Positions 4,632 to 50,890 of a stretch of 64,000 bases of DNA are shown here, one piece after another. The translations under genes and the position numbers were made by a program. The DNA lies in the NCBI RefSeq assembly GCF_016464015.1, contig NZ_JACDXT010000012.1, forward strand, positions 62,001 to 126,000. Direction: 5' to 3'. Below the pieces are notes generated by a model that worked only from the letters and a program-made list of their open reading frames with translations, made no database searches and was not told where the DNA came from. The stretch is from Psychrobacter sp. bablab_jr014. Lineage in GTDB: Bacteria > Pseudomonadota > Gammaproteobacteria > Pseudomonadales > Moraxellaceae. Every line of letters begins with the position of its first letter. Position 1 is the first letter of the stretch.

Positions 4632-5048
4632 ATGTCTGTTTATTTTCGAGCTGGTTTTATAAAAAATAGCGTGGCGGCAGCGCTATTATTGGGTGCAATG
4701 GCGACGGCAATACCCAGCCATGCCGAATTGATTGAGGATTCAAAAACGGTGATACGCTTTAGCTCGTCAGATGCGCGCTGGATTAGACCGCCTAACTTTT
4801 CCGAGCTGAGTTCCCATCGTGAATTTCTGCATAAAGAGATTGCGCTTGAGGTCTCTATGACAACGAATAAGCAAGGCGATATTACATACGTGCGGATCAC
4901 CACTAATACACCCACACTCAGCGAAGAGTCACGTCTCATGTTAGAAAGAATAGTCAAAAAAGCATTTTATCGCGCTAAAGTATCACCGTTCGTCATCGAT
5001 GGCCATGCTGTCGAGGGCATGGTAACAGTACCTGTTAGACTGCAATAG
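4632..5048 (+). CDS. Secreted TonB C-terminal-like protein, copy 1
   Basis: 138 residues from the ATG at 4632 (AAGGAA 12 bases upstream); an in-frame ATG at 4569 would add an odd hydrophobic leader. A signal peptide ends at S-H-A. The mature protein begins A-E-L-I-E-D-S, contains S-D-A-R-W-I-R-P-P and then the strand-helix-strand pattern of a TonB carboxy-terminal domain ending V-E-G-M-V-T-V-P-V. There is no transmembrane anchor, proline-rich spacer or ExbB/ExbD neighbour, so energy transduction by the classical route is unlikely. Function unknown; the TonB link is by fold pattern only. A paralogue follows 18 bases later. Confidence 0.6.
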   Translation: MSVYFRAGFIKNSVAAALLLGAMATAIPSHAELIEDSKTVIRFSSSDARWIRPPNFSELSSHREFLHKEIALEVSMTTNKQGDITYVRITTNTPTLSEESRLMLERIVKKAFYRAKVSPFVIDGHAVEGMVTVPVRLQ

Positions 5049-5066
5049 ATAAGGAATAAATAAAAA

Positions 5067-5573
5067 ATGAGGCTGCTTAACAGCAAACTTTTGAACAGGA
5101 TGGTTGTGAATGCTTTGCTGATTAGCAGCGTTTTGACCGTGATGACACCCAGCCATGCCGAACTGATTGAGGACTCAAATACGGTGATACGCCTTAGTGC
5201 GTCAGATGCGCGCTGGATTAGACCGCCCAACCTCTCTGGTATTTTTATTAATAAGTCAGGTAAGGATATTGAAATTTCGGTAACATTTTTAGTCAGTACC
5301 ACAGGAAGTATACACAACATAGCAATTAATGGCAGCATAAGTAGAAGAGAAGCATACGACTTAAAAGAGGCGTTTTTTCGTGCTCGGCTCAAGCCTTTTA
5401 TGAAAAATGGCGTCGCGGTACGAGGCGTCGCGACCTTGGCAATAATCATCGAAGCGGATGAGTATTATCCTACTCATCCGCAGGCTGACGTCTGTGCTCA
5501 AAATAGCGCGCCAGACCGCCCAGCAGCAGATTGTCGCGCAGATGCACAGGGCGAGAGATATGCTGAGCAATAA
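5067..5573 (+). CDS. Secreted TonB C-terminal-like protein, copy 2, with extended tail
   Basis: 168 residues with AAGGAA 10 bases before the ATG and a signal peptide ending S-H-A. Residues just after the cleavage site (A-E-L-I-E-D-S to W-I-R-P-P-N) are almost identical to copy 1, also at DNA level, while the rest is diverged. The TonB-like fold appears complete at about 5460; the last about 37 residues (start E-Y-Y-P-T-H-P) are read from DNA that is the antisense of the end of coaX. That tail is probably a by-product of a lost stop codon. Likely co-transcribed with copy 1. Confidence 0.6.
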   Translation: MRLLNSKLLNRMVVNALLISSVLTVMTPSHAELIEDSNTVIRLSASDARWIRPPNLSGIFINKSGKDIEISVTFLVSTTGSIHNIAINGSISRREAYDLKEAFFRARLKPFMKNGVAVRGVATLAIIIEADEYYPTHPQADVCAQNSAPDRPAADCRADAQGERYAEQ

Positions 5574-9191: not shown

Positions 9192-9210
9192 GTAGATGAA
9201 TTGACACGCC

Positions 9211-12200
9211 ATGCGCCTAAAATCCTTAAAATTGGCAGGCTTTAAGTCTTTTGCCAATGTCACGACGTTCAATTTTCCCAAAGGCATTACCGCCATCGTT
9301 GGCCCGAACGGCTGCGGCAAGTCCAATGTGATTGACGCCATTCGCTGGGTGCTGGGCGAGACTTCAGCAAAGCAGCTGCGCGGCGGGGCGATGAGTGATG
9401 TGATTTTTGCAGGGACAGAGTCCCGCGTCGCCAAAAGTGTCGCCAGTGTTGAGCTGACTTTTGAGCACACCCAAGACGAGCACACGGGCATCCGCCACGA
9501 GCTGAATCTGTATCACGAACTGTCGGTACGCCGTCAAGTCAATAAAGAGGGGCGCTCGGATTATTTTATCAATGGCACGCGCTGTCGCCGCCGCGATGTG
9601 GTGGATATCTTTTTGGGCACAGGCTTGGGCGCACGCAGCTATGCGGTGATTGAGCAGGGCATGATTGGGCGTATTGTTGATTCTAGCCCGTTGCAGCTGC
9701 GCGAGTTTATCGAAGAGGCGGCAGGCGTGTCGCGCTATCAGGTTAGACGCGAAGAAACCTACAAAAAACTTGAGCAAACCCGTGACAATCTGGCGCGCCT
9801 ACACGACATCCAAAGCGAGCTGACCCAGCAGCAAAAACGCCTGAGCAAACAAGCCGAAAGCGCCAAAACGCACGCCGCCTTAACCTTGGAACAAAGCGAA
9901 TTGGCACAAGCGCTCAGCATCCAAGCGCTCTACCGCGCCAAACAAACACAAATGACGCAAAAGGCGCAAAAGAGCCAGAGCGAAGCCGCCGCCAGCGAAC
10001 AGCAGCAGGCTTATGCCTTACTCAAACAAAAACAAGACACCCTAAGCGCGCGCATTAATGAGGCACAGTGGCTCAAAGACGAGGCGCAATCGAGCTTTTA
10101 TGAAGAAAAGCTCGCGCACCAACAAAGCGAGCATCAGCGCAATGAGCTTGCCGCCCAGCTTACGCAAATCAACGAGCAAATCACCCAAATTGAGCGTCAG
10201 CGCGAGCGTCTTGATGCCGACATCGAGCGCCTAGAGGCAGAGACTGCGGCGCAAGCGCAAAGCCTGAGCGAGCTGCGCCCTCAACTGACCGAGATTACCG
10301 AGAAGCGCGCCCGCTATGAGTCTTCTAGCGCGCCACTACAAGCGGCGTGGGATGACGCAAAACAGACCTTGCACCAACTAGAAGAACGCCTGCGTACCCT
10401 TGAGCAGCAGCGCGCCATTGAGCGCGAAGCACAAAAGCGTCTTGAACGCAGTGAGCACAAATGGACGCAGCAGCAAGAGAGCTGGCAAAATCGCCTCGCG
10501 CAGCATCAAGCGCAATGTGAGGGGCAAAAGAATGACGACAGCGCCGATAGCCTAAAAGACAGCCGTGCGCATATCGACACCCTAAATGCGCAGCAGCAGG
10601 CGCTACAAGAGCAAATCCAAGACACTGAGCCACAAGCCGCCAAATTGCAAGCCGCACTTGACGAGCTTACCCGCGCGCACAGCAATGATGAAAAGTGCCA
10701 TGCCACCTTAGCGGGCGAATATGACGCCCTGCACCGAATTCTTCATCCCGCACCGACCAAAAACGCGCCTAGCCAAGCGAGCAGCCTAGCCAACAGCGCC
10801 ACCCCATACGCGGTCGAGGCACATATTCAGACCCTACGCGAGCACATTGAGCTGACCGCAGCGGGACAAGCGCACGCTGCCACCTTGGATACATGGCTTG
10901 AAATGTTACTAGAGACGCACGTCTTGGACAGCAAAGCCTTGAGTATCGATGCGTCATTAGGCGCATTATTGTGGCAATATCAGCAAGGCGTTGAGACAGA
11001 CAACGGCCGCGACAATAACAGCAAGAACAATAAAAACAGTGCTCAGGATAAGAAAAGCGGCGCCCATATCGGCTTGTGGCTACCCGCGCAACAGACAATC
11101 AAAGCTGCTGAGAACTTGCCGCCCGATGTGTTCGCTGTCCGTGAGTTAATCAAAGCGCCTGCACTGTCCATTTTTCAGCATTGCTATCTGTACGCGCCTA
11201 CCACCGAGAGCGACAGCAGTACACTTGCCGCTATCTTGGCAGGCTTGCCGCCGCACGCTTTACTGCTCACCACCGATGGTTGGCTGGTCAGTACGCATGG
11301 CACATGGCATTTGCGTAAGCTGATGGGCAAAACCGACACCAGCAGCGCCTTTTTAAGTGAGCGCCTTGCCCAGCGTCATCGCTTGACTGAACTCGAAGAC
11401 GCGCTCGATACGCTTGAGGCGGCGATGGACACGCGCAGTAAAACCATCAAAGCGCAGACCCGCGACTATGACGCCATCAAAATTAACCTCGAAGAATTGC
11501 ACGCCCAAAGCCAGCGCTTAACCCAAGACATTCACCGCGCCGAGCAAGCCTACAGCGCGCGTAGTGCCGCCTTTGAGCGCAACCAAAGCGCTGCCCAGCG
11601 TTTGGATTCGGACAAGGCGCTGCTCGATACTGAGAAAAAAGAGCTGGATGACGAGCGCCAAGCGATCACCGACAGCATGGATACACTGCAAGCAAGCATC
11701 AACGAGTTGACGCCCAAGCTGCACGCCGCACGTGCCGCTTGCGACAGTCATCAAGCCGAGCGCCAAGCCATGAGCCAAGCGCGCCGCGCCGATGACGACA
11801 CCTATCAAGCATTGCAGCTAAATATCCAGCAGCAAGAAATCCGCCACGAGCACAGCAGCAGCAGTCTGGTGCAAGCCAAAGAGCGCCACTACCAAGCAGG
11901 ACGCAAAGCGCAAACGCTACTTACGCGGCAAAAACGCTATCAGCAGCAGCTGCCCGAGCTGACCGCCGAGTGCGCCCGCACCCAAGCCGCAAAAGACGCC
12001 AAAACCGCGCTGCTCGCCGAGCGTGAGCAAGAGTTAAGCACGCTAAAAGCTGACTACAGCACCCGCCAAGCCGCCCTTGATGCTGCAAGCGAGCTGCTGC
12101 AAGTCAAACAGCACGCCGCTGCCGAAGCCGCCACCGCCTTAGCGCTCAGCAATCAGCGCCTAGAAGACGCGCGCGCGCATACCGAAGCCGCTATTGCCGC

Positions 12201-39889: not shown

Positions 39890-39919
39890 AAAAAAACAGC
39901 GCCGAGACGCTGTTTTTTA
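39890..39919. terminator. Bidirectional-looking terminator beyond the CheX-like gene
   Basis: AAAAAACAGCG pairs with CGCTGTTTTTT around a six-base loop. On the minus strand it closes the signalling operon that ends at 39953. Confidence 0.85.
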
Positions 39920-39952: not shown

Positions 39953-40399
39953 CTAGTTGATACAAATACCAATGACGGCACTGTGGCCACGCCAGCTAAA
40001 GGGCGTGATATAACCGTTGTTCTCTTTGTTCAGATGAACCACTGGCGCACCATCGACGATACTGGGTGGTGAAATAACAAAATCAGGGCCAAATTCAGTA
40101 CGCGCATTACCTGAGATAGTATTAGCCATCTCACCGAGTAAGTCTTTCATCATTGTCAAAGAAGAGTCAGGCTCTTGCATGACATTGATAATCTCACGCA
40201 GCATGATACTGGGCGCACTCACATACACACAACCTTCAAGCGGTCCTGAGATACGAATGACACCGCTATAATCATAACCAACAGCAGATTTATTGCTGTT
40301 GAGATAGGGCGTATCGAGTGCAACGGGGCTGTCGTCAATCTGCGAAAAAAAAGCACTGATTGAGCTTAAAAAAACCCCTAACTTTTCTACTTTAACCAT
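39953..40399 (-). CDS. CheX-like phosphatase, copy 2 of the signalling operon
   Basis: 148 residues, cytoplasmic. The core helix has D-L-L-G-E-M-A-N-T-I-S-G-N-A, i.e. the E-x-x-N signature (E90, N93) with which CheC/CheX/FliY phosphatases dephosphorylate receiver domains. It shares with copy 1 the opening V-D/A-L-D-T-P-Y-L, D-Y-S/T-G and G-N-A-R-T-E-F-G. The expected substrate is the receiver encoded two genes upstream. Last gene of the operon; terminator follows. Confidence 0.78.
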   Translation of the reverse strand: MVKVEKLGVFLSSISAFFSQIDDSPVALDTPYLNSNKSAVGYDYSGVIRISGPLEGCVYVSAPSIMLREIINVMQEPDSSLTMMKDLLGEMANTISGNARTEFGPDFVISPPSIVDGAPVVHLNKENNGYITPFSWRGHSAVIGICIN

Positions 40400-40434
40400 A
40401 ATATCTTATCGTCCCGACGCAACACACGCGTCAT

Positions 40435-40884
40435 TTAGTCTTGCAAACACACCACAATTTCCCCAACTTCAGACTTCCAAGTCACAGGAATGATAAATGA
40501 GCGTTCATTTTTGGGCAGAATGATGCTCTGTGGTGAACCTTTAAATACAAACGGTACAGAGATATGGAATGTCGAACCAAACTCCGTACGCGCATTACCC
40601 GCAATGGTATTGGCTACTTCACCTGCCAAATCTACCAAATTACTTTCACTTTTGTCTGACTCACCCATGCTGTCTAAAATGCGGTCTAGTAATTTCGTGG
40701 TAGATGAAAAGTAAACCACACCCTTTTGCACGCCTGAAATACCGATTAGTCCTGTATAGTCATGGACTTTTGGCTGCTCATTTTCTAGCAGGTATGGGGT
40801 GTCTACCAACAGTTCTTCGCCACCAAACTGCTGAAAATAACCAGTGATAATATCTAAAAAAACCTGAAGTTTCTGTTCTTTCAT
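40435..40884 (-). CDS. CheX-like phosphatase, copy 1 of the signalling operon
   Basis: 149 residues. E-x-x-N at E89-N92 in D-L-A-G-E-V-A-N-T-I-A-G-N-A. The rest has the alternating strand pattern of CheX and lacks any membrane segment or DNA-binding motif. About one third to one half identical to copy 2 by eye, so an old tandem duplication. Gap of 29 bases to the receiver gene and 35 bases to copy 2. Confidence 0.78.
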   Translation of the reverse strand: MKEQKLQVFLDIITGYFQQFGGEELLVDTPYLLENEQPKVHDYTGLIGISGVQKGVVYFSSTTKLLDRILDSMGESDKSESNLVDLAGEVANTIAGNARTEFGSTFHISVPFVFKGSPQSIILPKNERSFIIPVTWKSEVGEIVVCLQD

Positions 40885-40913
40885 AATCGCCTCTATAGCT
40901 TATGGTTCGGGTG

Positions 40914-41276
40914 TCAGTCTTCCATCAGCTCATCGAGAGCTTCTACCAATTCTTCTTCAGAAAAAGGCTTACACAAAAAGCCACTTGCGCCCAGCGACAA
41001 AGCTTCAATGCCTGTGGCTTTATCCGATAATGCCGAAACTACCAAGATACGTACATTAGGATCTTGAGCGATAATTTTTTCGATACACTCTAAACCGTCC
41101 ATTTGTGGCATGGTTAAATCCATAGTCACAACATCAGGACGGTGAATATTGAATTTTTCTAGTGCCATCACCCCACTGGTCGCTGTCGCAACTAAAGTGA
41201 ACTTGCCTGAATCATAAGCGCGCTGAATGCGGTTTCGAATGATATTAGAATCATCAACAATCATTAATTTATACAT
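40914..41276 (-). CDS. Stand-alone response regulator receiver (CheY-like)
   Basis: 120 residues, receiver domain only. Acidic pocket I-V-D-D-S at the start, phospho-acceptor D53 in T-M-D-L-T-M-P-Q-M-D-G, switch T/S in V-V-S-A-L, and K103 in C-K-P-F. No output domain, so signalling must go through protein contacts. Lies between the kinase and the CheX-like pair; 20 bases separate it from the kinase gene. Confidence 0.95.
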   Translation of the reverse strand: MYKLMIVDDSNIIRNRIQRAYDSGKFTLVATATSGVMALEKFNIHRPDVVTMDLTMPQMDGLECIEKIIAQDPNVRILVVSALSDKATGIEALSLGASGFLCKPFSEEELVEALDELMED

Positions 41277-41296
41277 AAGTATTTATCATCCTTAAT

Positions 41297-43453
41297 TTAA
41301 GCGTTTGGCAGGGTAATGACAAAACGTGTCATTTTGCCAAGCTCACTATTTACATTGAGCGTACCATCATATTCTTTAACTTGTGCTTTGATGATATCCA
41401 GACCCACACCGCGACCACCATCTTCATCCGCTGATTCTTTGGTTGAGAATCCTGATGAAAACAGTGCGTTTAATAGCTCTCCGCGCTCAAGCTCACGTGC
41501 TTCATCAATACTATAGCGACCCAGTGTCACTAAGCGATCGCGGATCTTATCATAGTCAATGCCTTGACCATCGTCTTGAATGGTAATGACAAACTCTTTG
41601 CCGTTGTTTTGCATGGTCAAGTCTGTATTACCCGCTGCAGGTTTACCCAGTCCCATACGTACTGAAGGCGACTCCACCCCATGCACGATAGCATTACGTA
41701 GCAGCTGGATGCTGATTTCTTTGACCGCTTTGTTTAGATGTTGCGGGATGCGCACATCTTTTAGGCTGTCGCTGTTTAGGTTAATTTGCTTACCTTGGCG
41801 AGCTGCAATCTCACGCGCAAAGTTTTGGTAATAGCTGTACAAATGATCGTTTTCATCATCTAAGCTGATTACTGCATCTGTGACGTCAGCCGCAATGGGG
41901 GCTGTGCTGTTGTCGGTTGCTACTGTGCTGGCTGCCACTGTACTGGTAGCTGCAGGTGATGAGCTATTAATACGCTGACCCAAGCTTTCGATGGTGTTTG
42001 ATAGGCTAAGCAGTTCATCAAGCTGTACGGTCAATGGTAAGAAGTCGTTACCAGAGAGCTTGCCTTGGTTTTGTAGCGCGTATAATTTGTCTTCTGCTTC
42101 TGATGCAATCTTAGTAAAGCTGTGTAGCTTAAGTGCAGAGGCTTCACCTTTTAAGCTGTGCATTTCACGATAAATGGCTTTGAGCTTGTTCTCTAGCTCG
42201 TACTGTGAGCTACCTGGGTTTTTCAGGATATTGTTAATTTTATCGATGTTGATCTTCGTGTTATTGATAAACTCGTTGATCACTTTTGGATTTACATTCA
42301 AGATGGTGGTCAACATCTCAATCTGCATGTCATTTTGCGCACGCTCTTTTTCTAGGCGCTGCTCTAGCATGACCGCGTCTGAAACGTCACTTACGTTGAC
42401 CAAAATACGGGCAATTTCTTTGTCTTCATAAACACGTGAGAATTTAAAGTCAAGGAAGCGACTGTCTTTACTTTGCTCGCCTGAGGTATTGTGTAGCATC
42501 ACTTTGTGTAGCGGATTGAGTGAGTCTACCAGCTTCTCTTTTACGCGTGGGTTGTAGAGCTGCTCAATAAACTGACGCGTGGTTGATAGGTCTTTGTCTG
42601 AAATACGGCCACGAAGTACTTGCGCAAAGTTCTCACCAGCCAATTTTTGCGTACCGATAATGCCTTCTAGTGCACGTGAGTGCTGCTGACCGATGTTTAG
42701 GTCTTTATCAAGTAGGAACAGACCTGTGTTTACGGTCTCTAGAATCTCTTCGGTCTCGCGACGGGCTTCGAGTACTTCAGCATCACTTTCACGTAGACGG
42801 CGTACGAAGAAGAAGATAAAGATTAGGAAGTAGCCCAAAATCGCCGCAACACCCAAAATCTGAATCAAACGAATGGTACGCGCTTGGTTTTCAGCGTCTT
42901 CAAATACTTCGTTGGTCAAGTCGCCTAATGATTCGTTCATCAATAGACTTGAGGTTTTCGCCTGCTCTACTGCCTGAGTCAATTCATCACTAGAATCAAC
43001 CATAACGTTATCTGCGTCTTTTAAATACGCCTGAATACGCGGCTCTAATAATTTCCACTGCGCATCAGCGACTTGTAGATTTTGCTGCGCTTCACCACTG
43101 ATGGTTGGCAAGGTATAGCTGTTATCATCAACAGTAATCGTACCACCTGTGCCAATCTGATCGATTGATTGGTTGATTAGGTTGGTATTGTTTTCTAAAC
43201 GCTCAAGCACACGTTGGATGTGCGGTGAGTTGGTATCTTCACCATAGCTGCTTTCTAAGTCGAACAAGTCTTTAATTACCGCCTGTGCGCTGTTGGCAAC
43301 TTGGTTGGTTTGGTCAATCAAAACCGTATTACGCTCAAGCAAGCTTGATGTATAAAAAGTAAAGGCCAAAAGAGCGCCAATCAAAGATAAGAACAGCGCA
43401 ATCGAAATAATCAAGCCACGGTAACGACCGTTATTTGTAGTAGTTGTCGCCAT
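41297..43453 (-). CDS. Membrane sensor CheA-like histidine kinase (HPt plus ATPase)
   Basis: 718 residues. Membrane helix 13-33, periplasmic helical sensor region 34-193 that looks like a PilJ/4-helix bundle, membrane helix 194-217, PAS-like region about 232-360, then an HPt domain with the phospho-accepting H432 in M-H-S-L-K-G-E-A, a Thr/Ala/Ser linker about 498-530, and a CheA-type ATPase: N-box L-L-R-N-A-I-V-H-G-V-E-S-P, G1 D-D-G-Q-G-I-D, G2 G-G-R-G-V-G-L-D. There is no HisKA dimerisation domain, no CheW-like P5 domain and no attached receiver. It thus resembles CheA rewired into a membrane receptor. The gene starts two bases after the binding-protein gene ends. Confidence 0.88.
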   Translation of the reverse strand: MATTTTNNGRYRGLIISIALFLSLIGALLAFTFYTSSLLERNTVLIDQTNQVANSAQAVIKDLFDLESSYGEDTNSPHIQRVLERLENNTNLINQSIDQIGTGGTITVDDNSYTLPTISGEAQQNLQVADAQWKLLEPRIQAYLKDADNVMVDSSDELTQAVEQAKTSSLLMNESLGDLTNEVFEDAENQARTIRLIQILGVAAILGYFLIFIFFFVRRLRESDAEVLEARRETEEILETVNTGLFLLDKDLNIGQQHSRALEGIIGTQKLAGENFAQVLRGRISDKDLSTTRQFIEQLYNPRVKEKLVDSLNPLHKVMLHNTSGEQSKDSRFLDFKFSRVYEDKEIARILVNVSDVSDAVMLEQRLEKERAQNDMQIEMLTTILNVNPKVINEFINNTKINIDKINNILKNPGSSQYELENKLKAIYREMHSLKGEASALKLHSFTKIASEAEDKLYALQNQGKLSGNDFLPLTVQLDELLSLSNTIESLGQRINSSSPAATSTVAASTVATDNSTAPIAADVTDAVISLDDENDHLYSYYQNFAREIAARQGKQINLNSDSLKDVRIPQHLNKAVKEISIQLLRNAIVHGVESPSVRMGLGKPAAGNTDLTMQNNGKEFVITIQDDGQGIDYDKIRDRLVTLGRYSIDEARELERGELLNALFSSGFSTKESADEDGGRGVGLDIIKAQVKEYDGTLNVNSELGKMTRFVITLPNA

Positions 43454-43455
43454 GA

Positions 43456-44328
43456 TTACGCTCCCTCTTTATTGGTTGCTGTCGCGTTTTCAGGTGCTGC
43501 ACCTTGCTCACCAAGCCATTTTTCACCAATTTTTGCAAACGTACCACTTGCTTTTAGTTTGGCAATACCGTCATTGACTTTGTTAATCAACTCATCATTA
43601 CCTTTAGCCATTAGGATGACCTGCTGTGCTGAAGGATTGTCTTCCCCTTCATAAGCAACAATGTTTACTTTGTATTCAGGATGGTTTTTGGCGGTGTACT
43701 GAAGAATCGGCAAATCATGCAAAATGGCATCCGTTTTGCCTTGTATCAAATCTTCATACAATAAAAACGCCGTAGTTCTTGTTGAGAAGTTACTGTATTT
43801 ACCCATCGCAAGTGCTTGATCGACCTGCTTAGAGCCTTCCATTGCAGAGATATTTTTACCTTGCAAATCATCTAAACTATTAACGTTTAACTCTGGTTTT
43901 GCGTACATAACGGCCGCAGGGTTGAAGAAATAAGAATTAGAGAGTCCGTATCTTTCTGCACGCTCATCTTTATAAGAAATACCAGAAATTGCTAGGTCAC
44001 GACTGCCTGACTCTACACTGTCAAACATGTCTTGCCACGTCTCTTTATAAAACTCGACCTTAAACCCTTCTTCTTCACCGATAGCACGGATCGAATCAAT
44101 GTCGATGCCTTGCATATTGCCGTAATCGTCTTGAAATGAGAATGGAGGCATGGTGCCTGTGGTCGCTACTTTGATAACAGGCGCATCTGCTGGCAAACTA
44201 CTAACAAACGCATCTTGGCCCTTTTCTTGCGTACTATTGCTGGCGGTCGTTTCTGGTTGGCTTGAGTTGTTGCACCCAACCATACCTACGCTCAATACAA
44301 GCGGGAGTATTCGATAAAGCTGTTTCAT
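43456..44328 (-). CDS. Periplasmic solute-binding lipoprotein (family 3)
   Basis: 290 residues; AAGGA eight bases before the ATG. Lipobox G-M-V-G-C, then a Ser/Thr/Gln linker and an SBP_bac_3 fold: T-T-G-T-M-P-P-F-S-F at the start, G-I-D-I-D and D-L-A-I-S-G-I-S in the first lobe, G-K-T-D-A-I-L-H-D in the second. Such proteins bind amino acids or similar small ligands. No ABC permease or ATPase gene is near, and the next gene is a membrane kinase, so a sensory rather than transport role is inferred. First gene of the operon. Confidence 0.85.
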   Translation of the reverse strand: MKQLYRILPLVLSVGMVGCNNSSQPETTASNSTQEKGQDAFVSSLPADAPVIKVATTGTMPPFSFQDDYGNMQGIDIDSIRAIGEEEGFKVEFYKETWQDMFDSVESGSRDLAISGISYKDERAERYGLSNSYFFNPAAVMYAKPELNVNSLDDLQGKNISAMEGSKQVDQALAMGKYSNFSTRTTAFLLYEDLIQGKTDAILHDLPILQYTAKNHPEYKVNIVAYEGEDNPSAQQVILMAKGNDELINKVNDGIAKLKASGTFAKIGEKWLGEQGAAPENATATNKEGA

Positions 44329-47194: not shown

Positions 47195-50100
47195 TCAAAT
47201 CATTTTCCAAGTCATGTCATTTTCACTGAGCAAATGAAACTGCAGCTGTGGGTGGGCTTTTAAGTCCGCCGTTTTTAGATTATCAAGTGCATGCTGTAAT
47301 GCCTCATAATAAGGGGTGAGCATGGCAAACTGTACGGAGGTGGTGTGCTGCGTGTTTAATAAGCATTTGTCTTCAAGGTTTTGGCTGGCAAAGCGCAGCT
47401 CAGGCACACCCGTATAGCGGCTGGCACCCAAAATACGGTGGGCAACTTGCCCCAACTGCTGGCGGTCATGCGCTTGCCATGCGCGCGCAAGGGCCTCTTT
47501 TTCTTCATCGACACTATCAATCATCATGGTCAATAGCTTGATGGCCAAGTCAGGCTTGTTGGCTGAGCGCATGAGCGCGTCTTCCCAGTCGAGTACTGTA
47601 TGGTGCTCATGGGTACTTGGCATGGGGCTGTGTAGACCAAAATGTAACCCTGAGCTGTATTCAGACTCAGAACCAGCACCGTCTTGGGAGTCGTCAGAGG
47701 TATCCACGATAGCGCTGTTTGAGGTTGCGCTTTTAAGCACACTGTTGGTCACATCCTTAACGTAGCCATCACGAATTTTTTTCAAAGACAGCGGGCGATT
47801 GATTGGCGTTTCGGTGGCGTGCATTGCCATAGACGCCGCCGCTTGTACCGCCGTTTCGGTCGCATTGCCATGCGCAAAGCTCTCTGTACGTCCCAGCCAT
47901 TTTTGTAAGACTTGCAGTAGCTGCGGCTGGCTGATGGGCTTACCCACATAATCATCAATACCGATTGCCATCAGTTTGTCGCGCTCATCAGAGAGGCCAT
48001 GCGCGGTCAAGGCAATGATGGGAATGCGGCGTTCTCCGCCTTCGATGTTACGAATTTGCGCCGCCGCTTCTCGACCAGACATACGCGGCATTTGAATGTC
48101 CATAAATATCAAATCAATGCCTTCGCTTATGCTGCCTTTATCTTCGGCATCTGGCGTGTTTTGTTGGCGCTGTTCGGCTTTGGACTGTGCAGGCTTGTGC
48201 TCAAGGCGCTGCGTCTTGTTGCCTTTATTTTTTTGCACGTGCGCTTTACTGACCACCTCAATCGCTTCAAAGCCGCTATTGGCGGTAATGACTTTAATAC
48301 CCAGCTCGCTTAACAAGGCATCGAGCACCAGTAGGTTGGGCAGATGGTCGTCTACCGCGAGTACGGTCACTCCTTCCCAGCGCGGTGTGTTCACAACAGG
48401 CGCTTTGCTGCCTGCGGTGTCGAGCATGGCGTACAGCTGGCGTTTATCAAGTGGCTCGTAAAGCATCTTGGCATGATAGCGCCCTAAAAGGTGCTGATTG
48501 GCACTGACTTGATAACCAAAGACCGCCAGCTTGCCTTGATAATGCAGGCGAATTTGTTTTAACAATGCCATCATGTCATCTTGGGTATCGGTATCAACAA
48601 CCACCCAATCCCACTCGTTACCCTGCTCTTTTAATGATTGTAATAGTCCTGGTAAGGAGTTGGCGTGGGTAATACTGATGGGCAGCGTTTGCAAGCTTGC
48701 ATTTAAGACTTGTTTTGAGGCGTTGTGATTAATCCACACCAGCATGCGGAAAGTATCGTGCATGCGTGCCAGCGGTGACAATACTGGCGGCGCGATGCTA
48801 TCACCCGTAGGCACCTCAAGCGCATCAACATGCATGGGCATTCTAAACCAAAAAGTCGCGCCTTGTTTGTCGATGTTTTCTTGGGCATTGTCATAAAAAC
48901 CAATCTCACCACCCATCAAGCGCACCAGCTGCTTAGAAATCACCAAGCCAAGCCCCGTTCCCCCATATTGGCGGGTGATTGATGGGTCCCCTTGGCTAAA
49001 GCTTTGGAACAGACTTTTTTGTGCATCGGGCGAGATGCCTTTGCCACTGTCTTGCACACTAATCGTCAGGCAGTTGTCTTGATGATCATCGAGGCTGACA
49101 CGCACCAACACTTCGCCTGTATCGGTAAATTTAATCGCGTTACCTACGATATTGGTTAAGATTTGTTTGAGGCGCAGCGCATCGCCGATTATTTGCATCG
49201 GCACATCGTTATAAAACATCACCGCCATGCGCAGCCCTTTTTCTGCGGCGACTGGCGAGAGCATGTCCACCACATCATAAATGGTGTCATACAGGTCAAA
49301 CTCATGCTGATCCAGCACCAGTTTACCTGCCTCGATTTTAGAAAAGTCCAACACATCATTCACCAGCGCCAGCAAATGCGCCGACGACTTACGAATGGTC
49401 TGGACATACAAGTCCTGCTCAGGATTTAATTCGCCATGACGCGCCAGCAAATTAATAAAGCCATCAATACTGTTTAAAGGGGTGCGCAGCTCGTGGCTGA
49501 TATTGGTCAAAAACGCCGACTTGGCTTGGCTGGTCGAAATCGCGGCATCACGCGCATTACGAATGGAGATGTTTTGCATTTCCATCTCATCAAACGCCAG
49601 ACGTAAGTCGTCCTCAGTCTGCTCAGCATGACTTTTTAGCTCTTGAAAGCTGCTGTGCAAGCGGCGCAAGGTTTTGACCAAATCCTGCTGTAATAAGTTC
49701 AGCTCACCGTCCGATTCCACAGGAATGGGCTTATACAGATTGTCCACATTGGTACGCTGCAACTGCAAGCGCAGCTCATAAATCGGCGCAATCCAGCGCT
49801 TGGCATAGATATTCAGGCTTAGTAATAAAATTAAAATGGTAAACAGCCCCGTCACCATCAGCGCCATCGCGATACGATAGCGGGCAATGTACAGCGGCTC
49901 ATTGTCCATATCGATGAGCAGCCACAGATTTTGGCCTTCAAACTCACCCAAATACGTGCCGTAAGCTGTGCCAATGGGCGTGCTTTTTTGTGATAAAAAA
50001 TGGGTGTTTGGGTCAATCATTGGCCATGTGGCGTCAATACCATAACCGACTGTGGCCAAAACTTGATTGTTTTCGCGAATAATTGCGATGCGCTGTACAT

Positions 50101-50635
50101 GCTGCTCCGACTGCATACGGCTCAATCTGTCACGTATCATCACCAGCTGTGCAATCGCCCCTGTCGGTACATCATTTTTATTCATCTGACCGTCAATACT
50201 GTCAGCGCTGGCTGTATTTTGTGGTACAGGCGCCACGACATTACCCAGCGTGGGCGCGCTGCTCACCATGTAGCCCAAGCTGTTACTGTAGTATTCGGTT
50301 GGTTGATTTGAGAGTAGCGGCTGCGTGTCTTTGAGGCTGCTGCGGCGGGTCGGCTGCGAGCTGCGGTTTTCTACAATATCATCAACCACCCCTTGATTGT
50401 CTTCGCGCTGCTGGCGTTCTTGCTCCAGCAAGGTCGGTATCAGCTCGGTGGCCATGGGTTTGTAACGAATGAGTACCGCCTCAGCAAGCGCTTGCTGCTC
50501 AGATTCACTGGCACGCATCGTTTCATGAAATACCAGCAGCCCACCCACCATGGCGAGCACACAAATAGGCAAAAACACCAATAAAATCAACTGCCCATAT
50601 GCCGTACTGGTATCAAACCGCTTTTTGTAAGCCAT
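47195..50635 (-). CDS. barA: BarA/GacS-type hybrid sensor histidine kinase
   Basis: 1146 residues from the ATG at 50635, with GGTGA five bases upstream. Membrane helix about 15-35, large periplasmic domain, second membrane helix (F-T-I-L-I-L-L-L-S), HAMP, coiled coil, HisKA with H in N-I-S-H-E-L-R-T-P-L-N, HATPase (D-S-G-K-G-I, G-G-T-G-L-G-L), a degenerate receiver, a true receiver with D in F-M-D-I-Q-M-P-R-M-S-G, and a C-terminal HPt with H in A-H-R-I-L-G-A. It should phosphorylate the GacA/UvrY regulator, which is not in the window. The true receiver carries an unusual insertion of about 45 K/Q-rich residues. Divergent from cysM, as gacS is in Pseudomonas. Confidence 0.92.
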   Translation of the reverse strand: MAYKKRFDTSTAYGQLILLVFLPICVLAMVGGLLVFHETMRASESEQQALAEAVLIRYKPMATELIPTLLEQERQQREDNQGVVDDIVENRSSQPTRRSSLKDTQPLLSNQPTEYYSNSLGYMVSSAPTLGNVVAPVPQNTASADSIDGQMNKNDVPTGAIAQLVMIRDRLSRMQSEQHVQRIAIIRENNQVLATVGYGIDATWPMIDPNTHFLSQKSTPIGTAYGTYLGEFEGQNLWLLIDMDNEPLYIARYRIAMALMVTGLFTILILLLSLNIYAKRWIAPIYELRLQLQRTNVDNLYKPIPVESDGELNLLQQDLVKTLRRLHSSFQELKSHAEQTEDDLRLAFDEMEMQNISIRNARDAAISTSQAKSAFLTNISHELRTPLNSIDGFINLLARHGELNPEQDLYVQTIRKSSAHLLALVNDVLDFSKIEAGKLVLDQHEFDLYDTIYDVVDMLSPVAAEKGLRMAVMFYNDVPMQIIGDALRLKQILTNIVGNAIKFTDTGEVLVRVSLDDHQDNCLTISVQDSGKGISPDAQKSLFQSFSQGDPSITRQYGGTGLGLVISKQLVRLMGGEIGFYDNAQENIDKQGATFWFRMPMHVDALEVPTGDSIAPPVLSPLARMHDTFRMLVWINHNASKQVLNASLQTLPISITHANSLPGLLQSLKEQGNEWDWVVVDTDTQDDMMALLKQIRLHYQGKLAVFGYQVSANQHLLGRYHAKMLYEPLDKRQLYAMLDTAGSKAPVVNTPRWEGVTVLAVDDHLPNLLVLDALLSELGIKVITANSGFEAIEVVSKAHVQKNKGNKTQRLEHKPAQSKAEQRQQNTPDAEDKGSISEGIDLIFMDIQMPRMSGREAAAQIRNIEGGERRIPIIALTAHGLSDERDKLMAIGIDDYVGKPISQPQLLQVLQKWLGRTESFAHGNATETAVQAAASMAMHATETPINRPLSLKKIRDGYVKDVTNSVLKSATSNSAIVDTSDDSQDGAGSESEYSSGLHFGLHSPMPSTHEHHTVLDWEDALMRSANKPDLAIKLLTMMIDSVDEEKEALARAWQAHDRQQLGQVAHRILGASRYTGVPELRFASQNLEDKCLLNTQHTTSVQFAMLTPYYEALQHALDNLKTADLKAHPQLQFHLLSENDMTWKMI

Positions 50636-50890
50636 GCTCATCACCGATTGCTGATGCCCAAAACCCTAAGCCATCAGAGAGTAAAAATAAAAAGACTGCG
50701 CGCTATTTTAACAGTAAAGCGGTGTATCGCCCATGCACAGATACGCGCAGAGAGACACAAAATGCTATAATGGCGCCATTTCCTGTCTGAATTTTCAAAT
50801 ACACGCACCTGTAGGCATGATATTGATGCCTCAGCAGTGCATTTTATATATACCTGATTATTTATTACAATTTGCCATCAAGGATGCGTT

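Follow-up and report, generated by a model that had tools for sequence, protein, structure and literature searches.

We describe here a block of five genes in Psychrobacter sp. bablab_jr014, located in a stretch of 64,000 nucleotides of contig NZ_JACDXT010000012.1 (positions 62,001 to 126,000). This whole stretch is called the window below, and gene coordinates without a locus name refer to it. The block codes for a solute-binding lipoprotein, a membrane histidine kinase, a single-domain response regulator (the receiver) and two proteins of the CheX family. An earlier note, made from the sequence alone, had described five packed genes on one strand, and the open reading frames (ORFs) were confirmed as follows, together with a stem-loop beside them:

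39891-39918, given on the plus strand only (consensus scan): near-symmetrical stem-loop AAAAAACAGCG...CGCTGTTTTTT in the gap between CheX2 and rpsB, candidate terminator
39953-40399, minus strand: CheX2, second predicted phosphatase (148 amino acids; PF13690, 1.2e-19, 70.5 bits)
40435-40884, minus strand: CheX1, predicted receiver phosphatase (149 amino acids; PF13690, 9.2e-21, 74.2 bits)
40914-41276, minus strand: single-domain response regulator, receiver only (120 amino acids; PF00072 Response_reg, 1.7e-28)
41297-43453, minus strand: membrane histidine kinase (718 amino acids; PF02518 HATPase_c, 1.9e-15; PF01627 Hpt, 3.5e-6)
43456-44328, minus strand: family-3 solute-binding lipoprotein of type A, candidate periplasmic ligand receptor (290 amino acids; PF00497 SBP_bac_3, 1.6e-34)

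Counted from CheX2 towards the binding protein, the gaps between the ORFs measure 35, 29, 20 and 2 bases, which agrees with the spacing of 2-35 bases reported before. The domain identities proposed for the block (binding protein, HPt, CheA-type ATPase, receiver and two CheX proteins) were borne out by clear Pfam matches in an HMM check; the cut-off of PF13690 is 27 bits. The stem-loop is a candidate operon terminator as a pattern match, not as functional evidence. Judged from sequence, the operon appears to be a binding-protein-gated kinase that rests on a CheA-type catalytic half and signals to a lone receiver damped by CheX.

The kinase is composed, in order, of a first transmembrane helix (TM1), a periplasmic four-helix bundle (residues ~35-193), a second transmembrane helix (TM2), a PAS-like domain (244-356), a coiled coil (358-386), an HPt domain with His432 (389-498), a disordered linker (499-533) and an ATPase of the CheA-P4 type (536-718), the limits of the transmembrane helices being a manual reading of sequence and model. 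In the AlphaFold2 model (mean pLDDT 77.5, pTM 0.47, 33 sequences) a long helix leads into the periplasmic four-helix bundle, which bears a beta hairpin and whose fourth helix is long. Only HPt and HATPase_c exceed the Pfam curated cut-offs. The PAS domain named in the earlier note has no Pfam match at E<=1; it is the model, by the strands and helices of residues 244-356, that speaks for it. The ATPase resembles CheA P4 (1i59_A; Z 22.6, root-mean-square deviation (rmsd) 2.6, 176 residues), and His432, Asn587 and the G-box glycines are invariant among 33 aligned kinases.

From the set of domains that make up a CheA, the kinase possesses the HPt with a phosphorylatable histidine and the P4-type ATPase. 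The CheW domain (P5) gave no PF01584 match at E<=1, and the model ends with the ATPase fold at residue 718; the P3 dimerisation domain likewise gave no Pfam match at E<=1, with the disordered linker 499-533 standing in its place, the Pfam P3 model reportedly being insensitive (PMC10782961; papers are cited here by PMC number). Because a CheW domain is present in 100% of thousands of surveyed CheA proteins (PMC10782961) and both CheW and P3 are absent here, identity with CheA was ruled out, while the catalytic half is of the same stock as CheA. HisKA has no Pfam match in the kinase at E<=1 either; the place of a HisKA/DHp core is taken by HPt and the CheA-type ATPase. At one locus (L128, genome G199; L and G numbers are our handles for loci and genomes) the kinase of a kinase-receiver-CheX trio carries a dCache sensor instead of the helical bundle, on the same cytoplasmic half.

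Across the surveyed loci the pattern Asp-Asp, Asp, Ser/Thr, Lys is kept in 134 of 138 receivers scoring above 100 bits (duplicates included). Both CheX proteins carry the E-x-x-N motif that had been read from the sequence: E89 and N92 (CheX1 numbering) are invariant in 13 aligned CheX, and E-x-x-N-x-x-x-G occurs in 214 of 216 CheX from the surveyed loci, 146 of them different. CheX introduces an asparagine and an acidic residue into the CheY receiver site, where the aspartyl phosphate is hydrolysed (PMC3035606). Resting on intact catalytic motifs and fixed linkage, phosphotransfer to the receiver and dephosphorylation by CheX are plausible, and the two CheX proteins probably erase the receiver signal. 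In the tree CheX1 groups with Neisseriaceae CheX (SH-aLRT 92) and CheX2 belongs to a clade of 15 rows, all from Moraxellaceae (support 100), so that two separate clades, one on a long branch, stand side by side in this family. The closest CheX1 among named genomes is that of Psychrobacter aestuarii (91% identity in the CheX search). Locus L138 (G609) has two tandem kinase-receiver-CheX sets and extra CheX-like genes, of which 5047-5496 and 9205-9705 lack E-x-x-N; at L137 a 604-amino-acid protein with a TonB C-terminal domain (9592-11406) overlaps the end of CheX.

In the binding protein Cys19, the lipid-anchor cysteine at its N-terminus, and Asp205 are invariant among 20 aligned proteins, and Arg123 is conserved in at least 90% of them. 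Arg123 and Asp205 align with the Arg and Asp of the GlnPQ binding domains and of AncQR, residues which we take to hold the carboxylate and the amino group of an amino acid. Our best guess is that the ligand would be an amino acid or a close analogue.

No permease and ATPase genes of an ATP-binding cassette (ABC) importer lie beside the binding-protein gene in the window, and no ABC permease was found among the annotated neighbours (33.5-50.6 kb of the window). The claim that no permease is near holds for ABC permeases, but a Bcr/CflA efflux gene of the major facilitator superfamily (MFS) is located 335 bases upstream on the same strand. MFS efflux genes are also the upstream neighbours in most Psychrobacter loci. 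Five other upstream neighbours were checked, namely genes for an M48 peptidase (L042), DsbB (L048), an M24 peptidase (L202), a deaminase (L223) and, in Moraxella oblonga (L205:217-1812), an oligopeptide-type double ABC ATPase ~570 bases upstream; the last is the sole ABC-type neighbour among them. Regular association with an ABC transporter, named beforehand as an observation that would speak against a sensory role, is thus not seen. The ABC-linked family-3 proteins of this genome are encoded elsewhere and are 24% identical to the operon's binding protein. Just outside the window (L230, G000:C38:54401-59035) lies a complete family-3 ABC importer cluster: two permeases, an ATPase and two binding proteins in tandem whose starts resemble lipoboxes. 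The operon, with its binding protein free of a transporter, can naturally be contrasted with it.

Three lines of evidence favour the proposal that the kinase reads the binding protein: co-evolution, exchange of the sensor sequence and pairing with a second, unrelated binding-protein family. Over 57 adjacent pairs, distances between binding proteins correlate with distances between periplasmic domains (r 0.90; partial 0.88 given the cytoplasmic part), a value reached by 0 of 2000 permutations. Between the binding protein and the cytoplasmic part the partial correlation is -0.28 once the periplasmic part is removed. As a control, the MFS efflux gene on the other flank gives r 0.24 and partial 0.16 over 51 pairs, another binding-protein gene intervening in tandem loci. 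Within type A alone the partial correlation is 0.49 (45 pairs).

Six Psychrobacter kinases have no binding-protein gene (L045, L046, L047, L055, L148 and L190). They share 11-17% identity with the window's kinase in the periplasmic part, as against 81-87% in PAS-HPt and 60-69% in the ATPase; the truncated L191 (36% over 106 periplasmic positions) is counted outside these six, and the more distant L144 and L145 were left out of this comparison and of the kinase patterns. Because the modelled sensor of L148 (five sequences) keeps the layout of a four-helix bundle plus hairpin, the exchange concerns sequence and not fold class. When 12 type-A, 6 type-B and 6 gene-lacking kinases were compared, the difference of the gene-lacking ones was found to span the N-terminus through TM2. 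Type-B binding proteins are 35-36% identical to that of the window, and the difference between A and B kinases (45 A, 6 B) is centred on residues 91-130, with 12-26% identity between types and 52-75% within them. A placement of this segment at the membrane-distal tip was dropped, since by the helix order of the model it takes in the beta hairpin together with the adjoining parts of helices 2 and 3. At L146, L162, L177, L193, L195, L198 and L199 the kinase is preceded by two or three binding-protein genes in tandem; in the mixed A and B tandems (L193, L195, L198, L199) both the kinase-adjacent gene and the kinase sensor are of type A.

Paralogous kinase-receiver pairs occur in other genera of Moraxellaceae (L050, L057-L066), with 32-34% identity in the three that were aligned (L059, L060, L065); the nine genomes of L057-L066 also carry the first locus. 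Directly upstream of the paralogous kinase, 6 of these 11 loci encode Peripla_BP_4, an unrelated binding protein of the sugar type. Taking these lines together with the adjacency of the family-3 gene, we regard the input step from binding protein to kinase as well supported by sequence comparison.

Of the 199 genomes in the family sample (Moraxellaceae), 66 have the kinase at E<=1e-30; in this tally G018 and G027 match over the ATPase only and are CheA-like, the match of G033 is confined to residues 172-491, and the genes of G080 are broken. In the genus sample (Psychrobacter) it is present in 50 of 66 genomes, and CheX (E<=1e-8) accompanies it in 50/50 kinase-positive genomes and occurs in 0/16 kinase-negative ones. 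Profile searches at E<=1e-50 matched 22 of 341 genomes of the order and 17 of 369 of the class, ten of these matches covering only model position 396 onward. Outside the family the trio recurs across Gammaproteobacteria, usually with one CheX and with neither of the two kinds of binding protein that were sought. Because the order kinase-receiver-CheX is the same in 23 of 26 loci read there, the trio is not a product of chance.

In named genomes the best 80 of 438 CheX loci were used, a set biased to Psychrobacter; the counts of family-3 adjacency, of the paralogue and trio survey and of motif patterns include some genomes more than once. Among these best 80 of 438 loci the kinase lies within the locus in 78, and in 56 a family-3 gene precedes the kinase by at most 150 bases; these are 55 of the 64 Psychrobacter/Moraxella loci and one Neisseriaceae metagenome-assembled genome (L223). 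Two of the nine Psychrobacter/Moraxella misses (L168 and L191) sit at contig ends, and in L223 CheX is upstream, not downstream. Named hosts in this set include Moraxella, Neisseria, Alysiella, Dichelobacter, Reinekea and Marinobacter. From this distribution of loci we conclude that the core consists of three genes, to which the binding protein and the second CheX were added, mainly in Moraxellaceae. The exact layout singled out by the earlier note does exist, as the form found in Psychrobacter and Moraxella; the wider unit is a three-gene module with an exchanged sensor.

The genes are linked in relatives, as that note had required. In Psychrobacter the kinase, the receiver, two CheX and rpsB-tsf stand in fixed order, and the same site is occupied in another genus. 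In 11 of the 16 kinase-negative Psychrobacter the block is gone and the efflux gene lies directly beside rpsB. One of these, L259, retains the tail of CheX2 at the junction, which shows that the block was lost and not ancestrally absent. The remaining five make up a single clade in which that side has other neighbours. A tree of rpsB-tsf from 30 genomes (in the genus sample, 14 of the 50 with the kinase and all 16 without it) shows 8 changes of block presence, at least 4 of them forced by well-supported branches. The three core genes, for kinase, receiver and CheX, behave as a unit. At L056 (G080) an operon in the course of decay still occupies the site: the kinase is in pieces with stops, the receiver is shortened and one CheX is left.

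We propose that the operon forms a self-contained signalling unit assembled from chemotaxis parts, without receptors, CheW or methylation enzymes. The lipid-anchored, amino-acid-type binding protein would capture a periplasmic ligand and dock on the four-helix bundle of the kinase, a step for which co-evolution speaks. As its architecture suggests, the signal would cross the membrane via TM2 and the PAS/coiled-coil region and alter the autophosphorylation of HPt His432 by the CheA-type ATPase, whose motifs fit this role. By homology and fixed linkage, the phosphate would pass to the adjacently encoded receiver and be removed by CheX1 and CheX2. We consider this logic, from input to receiver, likely. 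The receiver has no output domain and must therefore act by binding another protein.

Several observations weigh against this scheme. Ten genomes of the family have CheX without the kinase, G033 has a partial kinase match and no CheX, and CheX is missing from all ten paralogue loci L057-L066. Strict HPt, N-box and G-box patterns match just 112, 107 and 113 of 130 kinases in the surveyed loci. Five of the 11 paralogue loci have no Peripla_BP_4 upstream. The sensors of L043, L044, L049 and L201 are 40-51% like that of the window, with no binding protein in the surrounding DNA; its gene may lie at another site, or the kinase may do without it. Dichelobacter nodosus (L132/L213) has 36% periplasmic identity and again no binding protein nearby. 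Finally, the kinase bundle is similar to domains with direct binding of small ligands: its match in Vibrio cholerae Vc1313-LBD (8bsa_B; Z 16.0, rmsd 3.1, 156 residues) is a 4HB chemoreceptor domain that binds D-Arg directly (PMC10390336).

This last match favours a reading in which the kinase senses alone, its bundle binding a small ligand in the manner of Tar and Vc1313, with the binding protein as a ligand buffer or a stray part of an uptake system that has only the promoter in common with it. The same reading would suit the 22 of 22 kinase rows in L120-L142 that have neither family-3 nor Peripla_BP_4 upstream (the two families sought) and the ABC ATPase gene near the binding protein of Moraxella oblonga. 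It does not explain why binding protein and periplasmic domain co-vary when the flanking control reaches 0.24, why the sensor sequence is exchanged in the six kinases without a binding-protein gene, why an MFS efflux gene, not an ABC permease, stands next to it in most cases, or why paralogues pair with a second, unrelated binding-protein family, and we hold it improbable. The correlation itself might be an artefact of linkage, one recombination tract having replaced both segments with no interaction between their products. The two segments are adjacent on DNA, and in the gene-lacking kinases the whole N-terminal stretch up to and including TM2 differs, as such a tract would have it; yet for the gene on the far flank of the binding protein r is just 0.24, and the intervening TM1 region remains 67-86% identical between A and B kinases, compared with the 12-26% at residues 91-130. 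An artefact of this kind is in our opinion quite improbable. A further possibility concerns the end of the pathway: the CheX proteins may not be mere off-switches but readers of the phosphorylated receiver, or their heterodimer may be the output, so that the receiver's target lies within the operon. The missing output domain of the receiver would fit, as would the retention of two paralogues of separate clades, one of them long-branched, together in Moraxellaceae, and the fact that outside Psychrobacter/Moraxella any other family accompanies the trio in at most 4 of 44 loci (E<=1e-15). A pure reader, however, would not need the catalytic E-x-x-N, which both proteins share with 214 of 216 CheX, and CheX as output seems unlikely.

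Among the neighbours in those 44 loci, no family qualified as a linked output gene; in the 44-locus sets some genomes are represented twice (L132/L213, L123/L220) or by near relatives. The distribution of pilus and flagellar genes bears on the receiver's target. An initial PilT search at E<=0.001 matched 35 of 35 genomes and was uninformative, as this family also catches other pilus ATPases; the threshold was E<=1e-140 in the family and genus samples, and E<=1e-120, at the level of PilT/PilU, outside the family. PilT is present in 66/66 kinase-positive and 105/133 kinase-negative genomes of the family (Fisher 5.5e-6) and in 50/50 and 11/16 of the genus (Fisher 0.0005). FliM is found in 0/64 kinase-positive genomes of the family and in 14/135 others (Fisher 0.0056), G018 and G027 being counted as kinase-negative and G018 itself having FliM; all three tests ignore descent. 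Within the family a flagellar output was rejected, since FliM is absent from all genomes with a full kinase. As PilT accompanies all 66 kinase-positive genomes of the family and FliM none with a full kinase, the type IV pilus is tentatively the likeliest target of the receiver.

The pilus link meets difficulties of its own. Outside the family the PilT excess is weak (21/21 kinase-positive versus 49/59 kinase-negative genomes, p 0.056, the genomes having been picked in the order of their handles), and of the ten PilT-less genomes there most are smaller than 2 Mb, two of them smaller than 1 Mb. The five PilT-less Psychrobacter are one clade, so the link is confounded by descent, and most of genus g15 is PilT-positive and kinase-free. 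The FliM comparison covers the family only, and outside it the trio is carried by Marinobacter, presumably flagellated, and similar genera. The receiver may instead act, through an unlinked partner, on transcription, on cyclic di-GMP, on a Ser/Thr kinase or on surface polysaccharide. No pilus gene was recognised beside the block, though most locus neighbours are unannotated; at L135 a receiver-Ser/Thr kinase gene directly follows the trio, and single-domain receivers with other outputs (EpsW, MrrA, McvR) have been published. The distribution of PilT and the lack of FliM in full-kinase genomes of the family speak against such outputs. So do hosts such as Moraxella, Neisseria and Dichelobacter, which we take to twitch and to lack flagella. 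We would give a non-pilus output an even chance. The receiver-Ser/Thr kinase fusion of L135 (9046-10290), next to the trio's CheX, is itself a candidate output.

In the fullest form of the proposal, exchangeable cassettes of binding protein and bundle would sit on one CheA-derived kinase in a pathway free of receptor arrays, and its CheX-damped receiver would steer type IV pili in parallel with Pil-Chp or through it, in non-flagellated hosts and with amino-acid-like ligands, of the sugar type in the paralogues. All of this jointly we regard as doubtful.

The block is flanked in the window by rpsB and tsf on one side and by the Bcr/CflA efflux gene, a crotonase gene and a BarA-like hybrid histidine kinase on the other; the last (47195-50644, 1149 amino acids) adjoins the crotonase gene. 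No genes for a methyl-accepting chemotaxis protein (MCP), CheW or CheR/CheB were found among the annotated neighbours (33.5-50.6 kb), so the kinase is not linked to the components of a classical chemosensory pathway. The earlier statement that CheW, MCP and methyltransferase genes are absent nearby is right for the locus, and MCP, CheW and CheR exist on another contig. The sole MCP of the genome lies on contig C45, in a Pil-Chp-like cluster with CheW and CheR genes alongside, two receivers and a 2346-amino-acid kinase with HPt, ATPase, CheW and receiver domains. CheX relatives are absent from viral contigs, and among plasmid records no single place covers 80% of the kinase; viral and plasmid origins were discarded.

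Pil-Chp, with components PilG, PilH, PilI, PilJ and ChpA, is likewise chemotaxis-derived and shares HPt, CheA ATPase and stand-alone receivers with the operon, and a PilJ sensor domain occurs on the kinases of L067, L068, L120 and L131. It differs in being a separate, full cluster on another contig of the same genome, whose two receivers are 32% and 24% identical to that of the operon. LuxQ and TorS have kinase cores of the HisKA/DHp type. LuxP-LuxQ, TorT-TorS and XylFII-LytS are systems in which a periplasmic binding protein is read by the periplasmic domain of a kinase (PMC6321045), as is predicted here. The operon differs from them in its CheA-derived kinase core, where HPt replaces DHp, in a receiver without output, in the attached CheX and in a binding protein that belongs to family 3 and is lipidated. 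The LytS sensor (5xsj) resembles the swapped sensor with Z 13.1 and rmsd 2.1 over 117 residues, values near chance for helical bundles. QseG-QseE (9m08), an outer-membrane lipoprotein with a histidine kinase, likewise has a lipoprotein as partner of the kinase sensor, and chain C resembles the swapped sensor (Z 12.3, rmsd 3.7, 156 residues), which may reflect a common arrangement of helical bundles. QseG is not known to be a solute-binding protein. With the CheA-CheY-CheX systems of Borrelia burgdorferi, arranged cheA2-cheW3-cheX-cheY3 (PMC10703414), and with Thermotoga CheX, the operon has in common HPt, P4 ATPase, a stand-alone receiver and CheX with E-x-x-N; it differs in the absence of CheW, MCP, P3 and P5, in having its sensor in the kinase and in the lack of FliM in full-kinase genomes of the family. 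Chemotaxis-like kinases with non-motility outputs are exemplified by Borrelia CheA1 and Myxococcus DifE-EpsW; CheA1 has P1-P5 (PMC10703414), unlike the operon kinase. Vibrio cholerae VC0377 also belongs to the CheX family, its role being called undetermined in PMC8789113. A description of the three-gene module was not found in the open-access PMC literature searched.

In 16 analysed Psychrobacter strains, PMC4754876 reports cheY and cheX to be present and other chemotaxis and flagellar genes to be absent, and the operon would explain why these two are there. Parts of the chemotaxis machinery apparently act here as an ordinary two-component system with a membrane sensor and no receptor array. 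As the input is exchanged and the cytoplasmic half fixed, coupling between sensor and output is directly testable with natural swaps. If the pilus link is true, twitching would receive chemosensory input from this module as well as from Pil-Chp.

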